Positions 22,509-63,113 of a stretch of DNA of 64,000 nucleotides are shown one piece after another (position 1 is the stretch's first letter; each line of letters opens with the position of its first letter). A program made the translations under genes and the position numbers. The notes beneath the pieces were generated by a model. That model ran no database searches. It was not told the DNA's origin and worked only from the letters and a program-made list of their open reading frames with translations. The stretch comes from Tidjanibacter massiliensis (GTDB taxonomy: Bacteria > Bacteroidota > Bacteroidia > Bacteroidales > Rikenellaceae): positions 1,550,001-1,614,000 of the forward strand of contig NZ_LT629960.1 in assembly GCF_900104605.1 (NCBI RefSeq), written 5' to 3'.

Positions 22509-22511
22509 CCG

Positions 22512-22586
22512 TCGGGATGACTGGACTCGAACCAGCGACCTTTGGTCCCCCAGACCAACATTCTAACCGGACTGAACTACATCCCG
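22512..22586 (-). tRNA. tRNA-Pro, anticodon GGG
   Basis: On the minus strand a 75-nt cloverleaf can be drawn: acceptor CGGGATG/CATCCCG, D arm GTTC...GAAT, anticodon arm TTGGT-CTGGGGG-ACCAA and T arm CTGG-TTCGAGT-CCAG. Anticodon GGG (genomic 22549-22551 reads CCC on the plus strand) makes it tRNA-Pro. The discriminator base is A; the CCA end is not encoded. It has its own consensus promoter and terminator. Confidence 0.95.
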
Positions 22587-22601: not shown

Positions 22602-22633
22602 CAAATATATCCTATTTTTTATAAAAAAGCAAA
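22602..22633 (-). promoter_or_regulatory. Consensus promoter of tRNA-Pro
   Basis: On the minus strand TTTG (22630-22633), a 20-base AT-rich spacer and TATATTTG (22602-22609), ending 15 bases before the mature tRNA 5' end. This is the best promoter match in the window. Confidence 0.8.
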
Positions 22634-34748: not shown

Positions 34749-34957
34749 TGGAATAATTCCGTCTTGCGGTACTAATTCCACCGTATAAAATCGACTTTTT
34801 TTACCGTACCGGAAACCGGGAATACCTATCTGCATATCTTCCCCCACCGCATAATGACGGCAGCGGCGGCCATTATTACGGTTTTTTTGCTAACTTTCGC
34901 ACGTTTTTTGTGTTCAGCACCTTACGAAATCGAAACACACCATCATTCCACCCAGAA

Positions 34958-58800: not shown

Positions 58801-58956
58801 CTACTTGAAACGCGTTTCGTCCGATACCGTCAGTTTCTTACGGCCTTTGGCACGGCGTGCTGCGAGAACCTTGCGGCCGTTTACGGTCGCCATCCTCTGG
58901 CGGAAACCGTGTTTGTTTATCCTCTTGCGACGGGAGGGTTGGAAAGTCCTTTTCAT
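58801..58956 (-). CDS. rpmH: 50S ribosomal protein L34
   Basis: 51 codons translated from the minus strand: it begins [20 protein letters not shown], continues [20 protein letters not shown] and ends [11 protein letters not shown]. This is a complete L34, slightly longer at its C-terminus than the 46-residue E. coli protein. It is a basic rRNA-binding protein of the large subunit. It has a consensus promoter, a terminator and no dnaA, rnpA or yidC neighbour here, unlike the arrangement in many bacteria. Confidence 0.97.
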
Positions 58957-58998
58957 GGCTGTCTATATTTTTACTTTTCGTCCACTCTTTGCGGAGTG

Positions 58999-59028
58999 CA
59001 AAGGTAAACCATTTTTACGATTTACAAA
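58999..59028 (-). promoter_or_regulatory. Promoter of rpmH
   Basis: On the minus strand TTTG (59025-59028), an 18-base spacer and TACCTTTG (58999-59006), 43 bases before the rpmH ATG. Confidence 0.65.
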
Positions 59029-59238
59029 AGAAATACGGCAAAATAATCACATGCGTATCAAAACATAGGGATGCGCCGTTGCCCCTCCGGGAGGAGATGT
59101 ATCCGCCGGCGTGCGCGCCGCCCTCTTCCGGGAGGAAATCTGTCGGGAAAAATGGCCCTGCAGGCCCTTGCAACGTACAATCGCCTGTATATGAAACCGT
59201 TTTTCACTCAAACAACATTCAATCGGCAGAAAATTATA

Positions 59239-59246
59239 TATATTTG
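59239..59246 (+). promoter_or_regulatory. -7 box of the candidate small RNA
   Basis: TATATTTG, a full match, in an AT-rich patch within otherwise GC-rich DNA; no protein-coding gene follows before the terminator. No -33 TTG at the expected place. Confidence 0.55.
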
Positions 59247-59251
59247 CACCG

Positions 59252-59437
59252 CAAAAACCGGAAAAGGAAAACGACTGCGAAGATATATCTCCGCAGGAAC
59301 GGCGGCATAACGGCATGTCACGAAAGCAGCCGGGCAGGCAAGGTCTCCGACCGCCTGTACCGGGATACCATTGAGAACCCCCAACTTTCGGCTTTGTCGG
59401 CCCGGAGGGCGGAAATATCCCCCTCCGGGTTTTTTAT
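59252..59437 (+). ncRNA. Candidate independent small RNA of about 185 nt (6S-like?)
   Basis: A promoter box at 59239-59246 and a strong terminator at 59401-59437 bracket 150 bases that have no credible protein but can fold well. Hairpin A is CTGCG/CGCAG with inner AGATATATCT (59275-59296). Hairpin B is CAGGC-GGTC/GACC-GCCTG (59335-59357), extended by CCGG pairs. The 5' end AAAAACCGGA can also pair with TCCGGGTTTTT near the 3' end, with one bulge, giving a closing stem as in 6S RNA. I do not recognise SRP, tmRNA or RNase P motifs. Length, isolation and closing stem favour a 6S-like RNA; another regulatory RNA is possible. Confidence 0.5.
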
Positions 59438-59439
59438 TT
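59401..59439 (+). terminator. Terminator of the candidate small RNA
   Basis: CCCGGAGGG/CCCTCCGGG stem (59401-59409 and 59421-59429) followed by TTTTTTATTT, the longest U-tract in the window. It does not follow a protein gene, which supports a separate RNA transcript. Confidence 0.85.
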
Positions 59440-59509
59440 ACTCTCCGAACGGGACCTTCCGTCATGCCGGAGTCTCCTCCGGCGAGAACCCCGCGGACAA
59501 GGCCGGAAT

Positions 59510-60133
59510 TCAGCGGGGAGCATAAACCACCTTTTTCGTTTCGAAAAACGCCTCGCCGAACCACTGCGCTATATCGTACACCTCGAAACGCCCCCCTGCC
59601 GCGGTCAGCTCCGCGGTCAGATCGCCGCCCTTCAGCACGAGCATGCCGTTGGGAAGCGTTCCCTTCCGGCCGGACGTTATCTTGTTCCACATCCATCCCT
59701 TCAGCACCGACATCTCCGTAACGGCCCGGCTGACTACGTAATCGTATCCGCCCGGCAGCGCCTCCGCCCGGCAATTCACCGCCTCCAGGTTATCGAGACC
59801 GAGGGCTGAGGCAACCGCCCGTACCACCGTAATCTTTTTGCCGATGGAGTCCACTGCGGTGAAGTGTGCCCCGGGGAAGAAGATGGCAAGCGGCACGGCA
59901 GGGAACCCCCCTCCCGTCCCGACGTCGCACACCTGCGCCCCGCCGTCGAAACGGCACGCGCAAGCAATGGCCAGCGAATGAAGCACATGCTTCAGGTAGA
60001 GGCTGTCGAAATCCTTGCGTGACACCACGTTGATACGGGCGTTCCACTCCGCATAGAGGTCGTACAAACGGACGAAGCGTTCCCGTTGCAGCGGAGTGAG
60101 TTCCCCGCTGAAATATTTCTCGATAAGTTCCAT
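59510..60133 (-). CDS. rsmG: 16S rRNA (guanine-527-N7)-methyltransferase
   Basis: 207 residues. ELIEKYFSGELTPLQRERFVRLYDLYAEWNARINVVSRKD is the GidB/RsmG N-terminus; the SAM loop is CDVGTGGGFPAVPLA (about 69-83), with AVDSIGKKI and SRAVTEM following. It methylates N7 of G527 in 16S rRNA; loss gives low-level streptomycin resistance in other bacteria. The start at 60133 (or 60142, three codons up) is typical. It converges with the candidate small RNA, and lies 43 bases after the broken FAD oxidoreductase gene. Confidence 0.94.
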   Translation of the reverse strand: MELIEKYFSGELTPLQRERFVRLYDLYAEWNARINVVSRKDFDSLYLKHVLHSLAIACACRFDGGAQVCDVGTGGGFPAVPLAIFFPGAHFTAVDSIGKKITVVRAVASALGLDNLEAVNCRAEALPGGYDYVVSRAVTEMSVLKGWMWNKITSGRKGTLPNGMLVLKGGDLTAELTAAGGRFEVYDIAQWFGEAFFETKKVVYAPR

Positions 60134-60176
60134 ATGAACCATCCTTTTAAAATTCCCTGTCCGAAAAGCCGCCCGT

Positions 60177-61771
60177 TCAGCCGAGATTGCGCACGATGGC
60201 CTCCGCGATACGCTCCCCGTCGAGAGCCGCCGAAATGATGCCGCCCGCATACCCGGCCCCCTCTGCGGCAGGATAGAGTCCGCGCACGGACACATGCATC
60301 AACGTGACGGGGTCGCGCGGAATCCGCACCGGCGAGGAGGTGCGCGACTCCACCCCCACCACCTGCGCCCCGTCGGTCAGGAACCCGTGCATGCGGCGGC
60401 CAAACACCGCAAACCCTTCGCGCAGCGCACCGCCGATGAACTCCGGCATCCATTCGGAGAAACGCGAGGGCACCGTTCCCGGCACATACGAGGTCGCCGG
60501 CAGGTCGGCCGACCTGCGGTCGGCAACACATACGAGGTCGCCGGCAGGTCGGCCGACCTGCGGTCGGCAACGAAATCGGTCAGCCGCTGGGCCGGCGCCA
60601 CCTGTGCGCTGCCCCCGGCCCGCCGGGCGGCCTGCTCGAAGTCGCGGCGGAACTTCAGTCCGGCCAGCTCGCCCCACTCCCCGCGCAAATGCTCGAAATC
60701 GGACAGCCGCACTTCCGTCACGATGCCCGAATTGGCCCACCGCGAATTGCGCCCCGACGAGGACATGCCGTTCACGACACTCTCCGACGGGTCGGTCATG
60801 GCAGGTACGATGACGCCGCCCGGACACATGCAGAACGAGTAGACACCCCGTCCGCCCACCTGGGCCGTCAGGGTATAGGAGGCCGCGGGCAGGTATTCAC
60901 GTCCGGCACCGTGATACTGTATCTCGTCGATGAGAGCTTGCGGATGCTCCACCCGGACGCCCATGGCGAACGGCTTGGCCTGCAGCAGCACCCCCTGCCG
61001 GTGGAGCATCGCGTAGACATCGTCCGCCGAGTGACCCGTGGCCAGCACCACGCTGCGGGCCTCTATCCGCTCACCGCCGCATACCACGCCGGCTACGGCG
61101 TCCCCGTGCAGCAACAGCTCCGTCACCCGACTGCCGAACCGCACTTCGCCGCCGCAGGAGGTGATTGTCCGGCGGATGGCGGTCATGATACCGGGCAGCC
61201 GGTCGGTACCGATATGCGGATGGGCTTCATAGAGTATCGCCTCGTCGGCACCGTGGAAGACGAGCGTACGGAGCGCCTTGTTGTAATCTCCGCGCTTCTT
61301 GCTCCGGGTAAAGAGCTTGCCGTCGGAAAAGGTACCCGCACCTCCTTCGCCGAAGGCATAGTTGGAGTCGGGGTCGAGCCGGCCGTTGCGGTTCAGTTCT
61401 GCCACGTCGCGGCGGCGTACCGACACCTCCCGGCCCCGTTCGAGGATGACGGGCCGGTATCCCGATTCGATGAGCCGCAGCGCACAGAAGAGGCCGGCAG
61501 GGCCTCCGCCCACGATGACGACCTCCTCGGCATGCGACACGTCCGGATAGTCGAAGCGGACCTCCGGAGCGGGCCCGTCGCCGTCGGCATAGAGTTCGAG
61601 CGTCAGATTCACCCGTACCGAACGCCCGCGGGCATCCACCGAACGCTTCAGGATACGTACCAACGCCACATCGGCAGGCGGCACCCCCGCCCGCCGGGCA
61701 GCTATCTCCGTATAAACTTTCCGGTCGGCGGCCTGTTTCGGCGAAAGAGTAAGCGTTATCGTACGGGGCAT
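60177..61771 (-). pseudogene. FAD-dependent oxidoreductase (COG2509 type), frameshifted by a 44-bp tandem duplication
   Basis: Reading from MPRTITLTLSPKQAADRKVY at 61771, the chain has VVIVGGGPAGLFCALRLIESG and a second half with SVVLATGHSADDVY, the FAD/NAD(P) oxidoreductase group of COG2509. After LTDFVADRRSADLPATSYV the frame is lost, because the 44-bp unit 60484-60527 is repeated at 60528-60571; translation then ends at 60377. With one copy removed the frame runs on into TVPSRFSEWMPEFIGG, GVESRTSSPVRIPRDP and GLYPAAEGAGYAGGIISAALDG, the conserved family end, to 60177. The function is unknown. It may be a real pseudogene, a reversible switch, or a sequencing or assembly artefact. Confidence 0.85.
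60484..60571. repeat. Perfect 44-bp tandem duplication with internal palindromes
   Basis: Two identical, abutting 44-base copies (60484-60527 and 60528-60571). Each contains the perfect 18-base palindrome GCAGGTCGGCCGACCTGC (60500-60517 and 60544-60561). Forty-four is not a multiple of three, so the duplication shifts the reading frame of the oxidoreductase gene. Palindrome-directed slippage is a known route to such duplications. Confidence 0.95.
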
Positions 61772-61920
61772 ATGGAATTTCAACGGTTTCAACGGGCCAA
61801 AGGTACTCAATTCCGCCGAGATTCCCGCCTCCGCACCGGAGCAGCGCCGCATTCCGCAGTCCTCTCCGACACGGGAACGGTTTATTGCCGGCAGGACAAG
61901 GGATGTTGGCCGAAAAACAC

Positions 61921-61928
61921 TACTTTTG
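61921..61928 (+). promoter_or_regulatory. -7 box of the membrane glycosyltransferase/sigma operon
   Basis: TACTTTTG, a full TAnnTTTG match, 21 bases before the ATG at 61950; no clear -33 element. Confidence 0.5.
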
Positions 61929-61949
61929 TCTTCGTATCCGCCGACGAAC

Positions 61950-63113
61950 ATGGAAAGACTCTCATCCGCATACGCATACCTTTGGGAAACCTGCGGACCG
62001 TGGGGCATCGCCCTGCTGGCCTGCATGATAATCCTCTTTTTCGTCCAGTTCTGGTATTGGGTGGGGTACTACGGACGCATCCCCTCCTACCGGAACGCCC
62101 GCGCAGGCGACGCCCGCCCGCCGGTCTCCGTCGCCCTGGTGGTGCACGAACCCGACTACGATTTTCTGGAAAACGGACTTCCGGTACTTTTGGGACAGGA
62201 GTACGACGACTTTGAAATTATCGTGACCGACCTCTCCGGGGATGTGGAGTTCGGAGAGGCGCTCGCGGTTATCGCCGAACACAACCCCCGTTTCAACGTC
62301 ACCCGCATGGTACGCGACGCCCGTTTTCCGATAAGCGACAAGATGGCGTTCAACGTGGCCATCAAGGCGGCACGCTACGACAACATCCTGCTGACCACGG
62401 TAGACAGCCGCCCGGCATCGCTCCAGTGGATAGCCCGCATGGCACGCGGATTCGACGGTGCGGGTATCGTGATAGGTTACTGCGGCATGGAAGGAGCCTC
62501 CGCCTTCTCCTCCCGCCTGATAAGGCTGGACAATGCGGCCCGGGCCATCCGCTGGCTGAGTGCGGCCATGCACGGGAAACCCTACCGGGGTACGCTCCAG
62601 AACATCGGCTTCACCAAGGCACTTTACTTCGGCAACGGAGGATTCAATTACCTCAACATGAATATCGGCGAGGACGACCTCTTCATCCAGAAACTGCTGG
62701 AAACGGGTACCGCCGCAGCAGTCATCGTCTCATCCAATTCGACCGTCCGGCAGAAGATATGGGGCGGAACGGGCTGGTGGTATGCCGACCGCTGCATGCG
62801 CAGCAACGCATTCCGCCACTATCCGGCGAAGGTGAAGACTTTTGTTGCCGCCGAGCTCTGGAGCCGGGCGCTCTTTTTCGCCGCGGCGGCCGCGGCCGTC
62901 GTCCTGTTTCCACCGGAACTAAAACTCTTCGCGGCAGGATTGCTGCTGATACGTTTCGGCCTGATTTTCTTCGAGATGCGGCGCATCACGCGCCGGCTTT
63001 CCGAGAAGGGATTGATGAGGGCCGTTCCCCTCTACGACCTCTGCTCGCCGCTGTACGAGGCATGGATGGCCGCAGACCGTAAATTCAGACGTTCGCCGGG
63101 ACTATGGAGATAA
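61950..63113 (+). CDS. Membrane-bound family 2 glycosyltransferase
   Basis: 387 residues. One N-terminal helix (WGIALLACMIILFFVQFWYWVGYYG, about 18-42), a GT-A domain with VSVALVVHEPDYDFLENGLPVLLGQEY and NVAIKAARYDNILLTTVDSRP (in the place of the DxD region), GEDDLFI for the catalytic base, and two C-terminal helices (LWSRALFFAAAAAAVVLFP; LFAAGLLLIRFGLIFFEM). This is the processive/COG1215-like layout, but the QxxRW motif is only weakly kept as RQKIW. Product unknown. The start MERLSSAYAY at 61950 is preferred. Its end overlaps the ECF sigma gene by 10 bases. Confidence 0.85.
   Translation: MERLSSAYAYLWETCGPWGIALLACMIILFFVQFWYWVGYYGRIPSYRNARAGDARPPVSVALVVHEPDYDFLENGLPVLLGQEYDDFEIIVTDLSGDVEFGEALAVIAEHNPRFNVTRMVRDARFPISDKMAFNVAIKAARYDNILLTTVDSRPASLQWIARMARGFDGAGIVIGYCGMEGASAFSSRLIRLDNAARAIRWLSAAMHGKPYRGTLQNIGFTKALYFGNGGFNYLNMNIGEDDLFIQKLLETGTAAAVIVSSNSTVRQKIWGGTGWWYADRCMRSNAFRHYPAKVKTFVAAELWSRALFFAAAAAAVVLFPPELKLFAAGLLLIRFGLIFFEMRRITRRLSEKGLMRAVPLYDLCSPLYEAWMAADRKFRRSPGLWR

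Follow-up and report, generated by a model that had tools for sequence, protein, structure and literature searches.

The gap between rpmH and rsmG in the window (the whole 64-kb stretch of DNA analyzed here) contains promoter and terminator signals that bound a compact transcription unit, which probably makes a regulatory RNA of about 190 bases. The pairing of these signals is unique in the window, the RNA has no detectable homologues, and it is not the 6S-type RNA of this genome. The explanation we favor, and consider fairly probable, is a lineage-specific intergenic small RNA (sRNA) gene with its own promoter and terminator, whose product would act by base pairing in trans with mRNAs, as in analogous systems. 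It is best read as an sRNA gene of recent origin and of an ordinary kind. The relevant features of the window are as follows.

58801..58956, minus strand: rpmH, ribosomal protein L34 (Pfam, 82.1 bits)
58999..59006, minus strand: TACCTTTG box found by box scan, the likely rpmH promoter, divergent from the sRNA
59239..59246, plus strand: sigma-A -7 box TATATTTG of Bacteroidota type, fitting TAnnTTTG
59247..59256, plus strand: CACCGCAAAA, a start region common to the tRNA promoters of relatives (sequence matches)
59251..59438, plus strand: predicted stand-alone small RNA of about 185-188 nt and 55.9% G+C, delimited by promoter and terminator sequence
59251..59263, plus strand: 5' side of a possible closing stem, pairing with 59386-59397 (pair probability 0.55-0.88)
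59275..59296, plus strand: predicted internal hairpin 1, 5+3 pairs (probability 0.78-1.0)
59315..59374, plus strand: putative ATG open reading frame (ORF) of 19 codons, the sole closed one in the transcript
59334..59358, plus strand: predicted internal hairpin 2, 6+4 pairs (probability 0.85-1.0)
59401..59438, plus strand: intrinsic terminator from the terminator scan, a bulged G+C-rich hairpin followed by TTTTTTATT
59510..60136, minus strand: rsmG, 16S rRNA methyltransferase G, convergent with the sRNA (Pfam GidB, 118.6 bits)

Promoter and terminator

The consensus -7 box claimed in an earlier note on this DNA is indeed present, in the form expected of a Bacteroidota sigma-A promoter; PMC9723704 gives the consensus as TAnnTTTG, at -12 to -5. 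From the position of the box, transcription is predicted to start at about 59251. The motif is over-represented in the window, with 30 copies found against a mean of 13.6 and a maximum of 25 in shuffled sequences, and the longer form TAnnTTTGC occurs 12 times on the two strands together.

Many relatives contain short sequences that match the promoter part of the query. The surroundings of 20 of the 30 loci listed, namely those with a match in the promoter part (query positions 1-33), were scanned for tRNA genes. A tRNA gene starts on the same strand within 50 nt downstream in 10 of these 20 (L002, L008, L009, L013, L014, L016, L017, L018, L019, L025); not all of the ten are independent, since some represent one tRNA found in two genomes. 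When the larger insert was searched against 150 family genomes, a sample of a larger group, at E≤0.001, it matched its own genome and three tRNA promoters, at tRNA-Ser, tRNA-Pro and tRNA-Leu genes. Within its own genome, TAnnTTTGCACCGCAAA occurs once, at the sRNA locus; allowing one mismatch adds one further site, before a tRNA-Glu gene. These data suggest that the sRNA promoter is a strong one of the stable-RNA type. A relic of a tRNA gene was considered and rejected, as neither ARAGORN nor Rfam finds a tRNA at the site. The window also holds a tRNA-Pro (ggg) gene at 22511-22586 on the minus strand, behind an TATATTTGCACC promoter (box 22602-22609) of the same type as that of the sRNA. The promoters and the relatives suggest that the DNA comes from a Bacteroidota, probably one of the Bacteroidales.

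At the other end, the terminator hairpin at 59401-59429 has a predicted stability of -23.3 kcal/mol and is followed by TTTTTTATTT (T6). It is the most stable of 15 terminator-like sites scanned in the window, which bears out the earlier description of a strong terminator. The same description credited it with the longest U-tract in the window, and this was mistaken: a site with seven Ts exists at 34882 (plus strand, weak hairpin). Three further sites with six Ts lie on the minus strand (47312, 32938 and 8801), all with weaker hairpins than that at 59401-59429. A simpler terminator scan returned four sites, with 3.4 expected, and the 59401 site was absent from its list, we think owing to the bulge in its stem.

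The distance from box to terminator is 191 nt, and this is the sole TAnnTTTGC-terminator pair spaced by 60-350 nt on either strand of the window. Two features of a stand-alone intergenic sRNA, a sigma-A promoter and an intrinsic terminator of its own, were found at the sequence level, and the proposal of an independent small RNA gene in the earlier note is well supported by sequence. The unit at 59251-59438 would be transcribed into an RNA with 55.9% G+C, in a window with 58.8%.

Predicted fold

The whole predicted RNA folds at -70.9 kcal/mol, compared with -58.5 for shuffled sequences (z -2.8; 10 of 1000 shuffles as good). This excess is due to the terminator hairpin: with the hairpin removed, z is -0.8 and 199 of 1000 shuffles fold as well. 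The earlier claim of foldable sequence therefore stands insofar as stems can form, and falls insofar as the body of the RNA is no better folded than its shuffles. Pairing of the 5' and 3' ends, also claimed, appears possible in the model through a closing stem made of 59251-59255 with 59393-59397 (5 pairs) and 59258-59263 with 59386-59391 (6 pairs); its probability falls to 0.38-0.61 if the terminator is left out of the fold. The two good internal hairpins described before are likewise recovered by the fold prediction, with the probabilities given above.

Homologues and genomic context

No convincing homologue of the RNA was detected in the genome collection, which holds one genome per species. 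A blastn search with the RNA against 22 other genomes of the genus gave a single match at E≤0.01, of 28 nt (E 7e-4), in the genome G008. It corresponds to RNA positions 59378-59405 and sits between two genes. This match was not counted as a homologue because no T-run or terminator lies behind it and because it scores 1.0 bit with R2, a structure model made from one sequence entered twice with helices chosen by dropping those of low probability. The best R2 score at the G008 locus, 11.2 bits, belongs to an unrelated terminator-like hairpin, and R1, a 6S-type model described below, reaches at most 7.3 bits there. At E≤1, R2 finds the window itself among 23 genus genomes and nothing in the other 22; it also finds nothing in the rpmH loci of 18 relatives or in the 6S-type locus. 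At gathering level, Rfam reports one tRNA alone in the whole window. Matches to sRNA-Xcc1, mir-5881, SNORA49, anti-hemB and CRISPR-DR36 fall far below their gathering scores and were taken as chance. The literature searched yielded no transcript map for Alistipes.

The rpmH neighborhood was compared at 30 loci, from this genome and 29 relatives. The rsmG gene lies upstream of rpmH in this genome and in 18 of the 29 relatives; it is on the other side of rpmH in one, and outside the 1.5 kb examined in ten. A scan of genome contigs with RsmG gave one Tannerellaceae locus, which was left out of the comparison. The rpmH-rsmG gap is 557 nt here versus 97-303 nt in the 18 relatives, with the rsmG end taken at the closest base aligned to RsmG rather than at the stop codon, and a 188-nt RNA with its promoter is too large for most of the relatives' gaps. 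All 18 of these gaps contain GCAAAnnTA, the complement of TAnnTTTGC on the rpmH strand, and 12 of the 18 contain GCAAAGGTA.

Several observations concern the remainder of the gap. The rpmH leader carries TTTGCGGAGTGCAAAGGTA at 58981-59006 of the window. At 59086-59144 the insert carries an 18-nt sequence, TCCGGGAGGAGATGTATC, twice; the copies are 83% alike and 41 nt apart. An origin of the insert from a mobile element was tried and rejected, there being no plasmid or phage match at E≤0.1; one 21-nt stretch of the insert also has no exact match in viral contigs.

Function and alternative explanations

In the mechanism we propose, a sigma-A promoter of the stable-RNA type would drive synthesis of an RNA of about 185-188 nt that ends at its own terminator and carries two local hairpins and possibly a closing stem. 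With BatR and other Bacteroides sRNAs as the analogy, we take pairing in trans with mRNAs as its most likely mode of action. The likeliest pairing sites would be the A-rich segment at the 5' end or the regions of weak structure at about 59297-59333 and 59359-59385. Two non-promoter matches, from those listed among 14 in the own genome, were inspected as antisense targets. The first, of 22 nt (E 0.13), runs antisense within a 613-codon open frame, and the second, of 27 nt (E 0.25), has the same orientation as the flanking plus-strand frames; both are at chance level, neither is convincing, and they were rejected.

Two other explanations are unlikely to a similar degree. The RNA may act in cis, pairing perfectly with the read-through tail of rsmG so as to separate rsmG from rpmH or to limit rsmG. 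Such pairing could occur, as the RNA is antisense to the region into which rsmG would be read through: it lies between the two genes, opposite in strand to both and convergent with rsmG, and on the minus strand the terminator scan gives no site in the interval from rsmG to the RNA. However, 18 relatives keep the rsmG-rpmH order with their shorter gaps and lack a detectable copy of the RNA, and the TACCTTTG box points to a separate promoter for rpmH.

The RNA may equally be a functionless by-product of transcription, produced where a recent insert lies by chance between a tRNA-type promoter and a terminator. It is an orphan, and without a homologue purifying selection cannot be demonstrated; it shows no excess structure apart from the terminator, and its promoter region is tRNA-like. 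Against this, a strong terminator and a good promoter form a matched pair with no other element in between, in an arrangement found once in the window.

A bolder version of the sRNA explanation, to which we give a rather small chance, is that of a very young regulatory RNA: a tRNA-type promoter would have come to stand before new, terminator-bearing sequence, and the resulting closed rod would control a few mRNAs. If this is true, an sRNA has been born from a stable-RNA promoter in one species. For the question of how strain-specific sRNA genes originate, the locus offers a workable example because its insertion context is well bounded, with the same neighbors and a short gap in relatives, and its promoter is of the tRNA type.

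The transcript could also be a small mRNA for a basic peptide of 19 residues, starting at the ATG at 59315, which we regard as very improbable. In its favor, the transcript contains a single closed ATG ORF; yet the longer frames tested have no family match, and there is no relative for comparison. Four open frames cross the insert and none matches a Pfam family at E≤1, on which ground a hidden gene in the insert was rejected. The earlier reading of the sequence as non-coding is consistent with the lack of any sign of coding in these four frames, although the 19-codon ORF could conceivably be translated.

An RsmY-like sponge that binds the CsrA protein through GGA motifs can be dismissed almost entirely, since its weak cmscan match (RF00195, 22.3 bits; E 0.0028 for 611 bases, 0.29 for the window) is far below the gathering score of 57, starts inside the promoter box (59240) and breaks several pairs, and since no CsrA above the curated cut-off occurs in the genome (best 12.5 bits versus 27).

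A probable 6S-type RNA elsewhere in the genome

The earlier note had offered 6S RNA as a reasonable guess for the window RNA, a reading that its length and possible closing stem favor. We now hold this to be scarcely credible. Covariance searches of 58950-59560 with RF00013 and RF01685 gave no match at E≤10, a negative result that is weak by itself, as neither family detects the better candidate described below. With filters off, R1 gives four matches in 59000-59520, the best of 1.1 bits, none of which overlaps 59251-59438. The 6S-type blocks CCCGCA, ACTYAACA, ACAGGCC and TTGGACGTT are absent from the window RNA. Finally, a 6S-Flavo-type RNA is encoded elsewhere in the genome, with zapA and rny as its neighbors. 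The window RNA was rejected as the 6S gene of this genome in favor of that locus, on the contig C7, where R1 scores 84.4 bits versus no overlap here.

RF00013 is evidently insensitive in these genomes. It gave a match at E≤1 in one of 60 relatives, with none over the cut-off, and no match in the 23 genus genomes, this one included; Bacteroides ihuae, one of 14 control genomes, also went without a match. RF01685 (6S-Flavo), named as a Bacteroidetes motif in PMC2864571, matched 21 of 60 genomes at E≤10, with a best E of 3.3e-5 and every match below the cut-off, and gave no match in this genome at E≤10. Its controls yielded one sub-threshold match, in an archaeon, and none in Bacteroides ihuae.

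To build R1, the 11 best matches among 26 to RF01685 in relatives were taken, all of them below the gathering score; with just 13 base pairs, the model mainly captures sequence. Variants of the blocks ACTCAACA, ACAGGCC and TTGGACGTT are common to these 11, which are flanked by a CCCGCA-type segment and, ahead of a T-run, by the partner of that segment. A two-block pattern was present in 18 of 40 genomes, including 15 of 23 in the genus, compared with 2 of 40 for a reversed control. It occurs once in this genome, at G000:C7:137018-137084, where R1 scores with E 1.5e-16. For the R1 test, 16 of the 18 pattern loci were entered, L096 and L101 being omitted as the same places as the training loci L071 and L072. 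R1 matched 15 of 17 sources, the window and L107 being those without a match; one of the 15, L091, is itself a training place (the same as L064), leaving 14 independent of training. The resulting feature is given below.

G000:C7, about 136937-137165 (L094 1420-1648; L117): predicted 6S-Flavo-type RNA of about 229 nt, from GGAATTATCCCGCA to the T-run, between zapA and rny

The flanking zapA is identified by Pfam ZapA (45.5 bits), and rny, on the other flank, encodes RNase Y. In E. coli, 6S also follows zapA. RNA of this type could be aligned from 14 of the 15 genus genomes with the pattern. The name 6S rests on the chain from RF01685 through R1 to C7 together with synteny, because Rfam 15 gives no match at E≤1 on this locus and three orthologues (four loci in all) and because of the few pairs in R1. 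On this sequence evidence, the genome seems to carry a 6S-type RNA at C7. RF01685 could be widened accordingly, and the C7-type RNA would be useful in practice for annotation.

Comparison with known systems

The window RNA resembles 6S-Flavo (RF01685) in length class and in its possible 5'/3' closing stem. In the 6S-type RNA of the genus, the closing stem runs into the terminator, whereas the terminator of the window RNA is a separate hairpin.

Parallels are also found among the high-confidence intergenic sRNAs of Bacteroides thetaiotaomicron, for which Ryan et al. 2020 (PMC7366714) report 124 intergenic sRNAs, 49 of them with a start site and a terminator; 27 of these 49 are strain-specific. 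They are like the predicted RNA in having their own start signal and intrinsic terminator, in being intergenic and, in many cases, in being strain-specific. They differ in that they have been seen as RNA, whereas the window RNA is a prediction, and in their G+C content, 35% for the intergenic sRNAs versus 55.9% here.

BatR of B. thetaiotaomicron (PMC10861873) has a seed that the long form partly hides; once processed, the RNA pairs with translation start regions. The predicted RNA is like BatR in its -7 box, its terminator and a structured long form, which in BatR is 154 nt long with a partly masked seed. BatR differs in its conservation across Bacteroides and in having targets that have been tested.

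A split gene near the locus

Beyond rsmG, the gene for an FAD-dependent protein at 60180-62026 of the window (minus strand) is split between two frames, with Pfam FAD-depend_C covered from 1 to 144 in one frame and from 135 to 197 in the other. A 44-bp unit whose core is palindromic occurs at 60483-60570 as two identical copies in tandem, at the point of the frame change. The copy number of this unit would set the frame, because 88 is not a multiple of 3.
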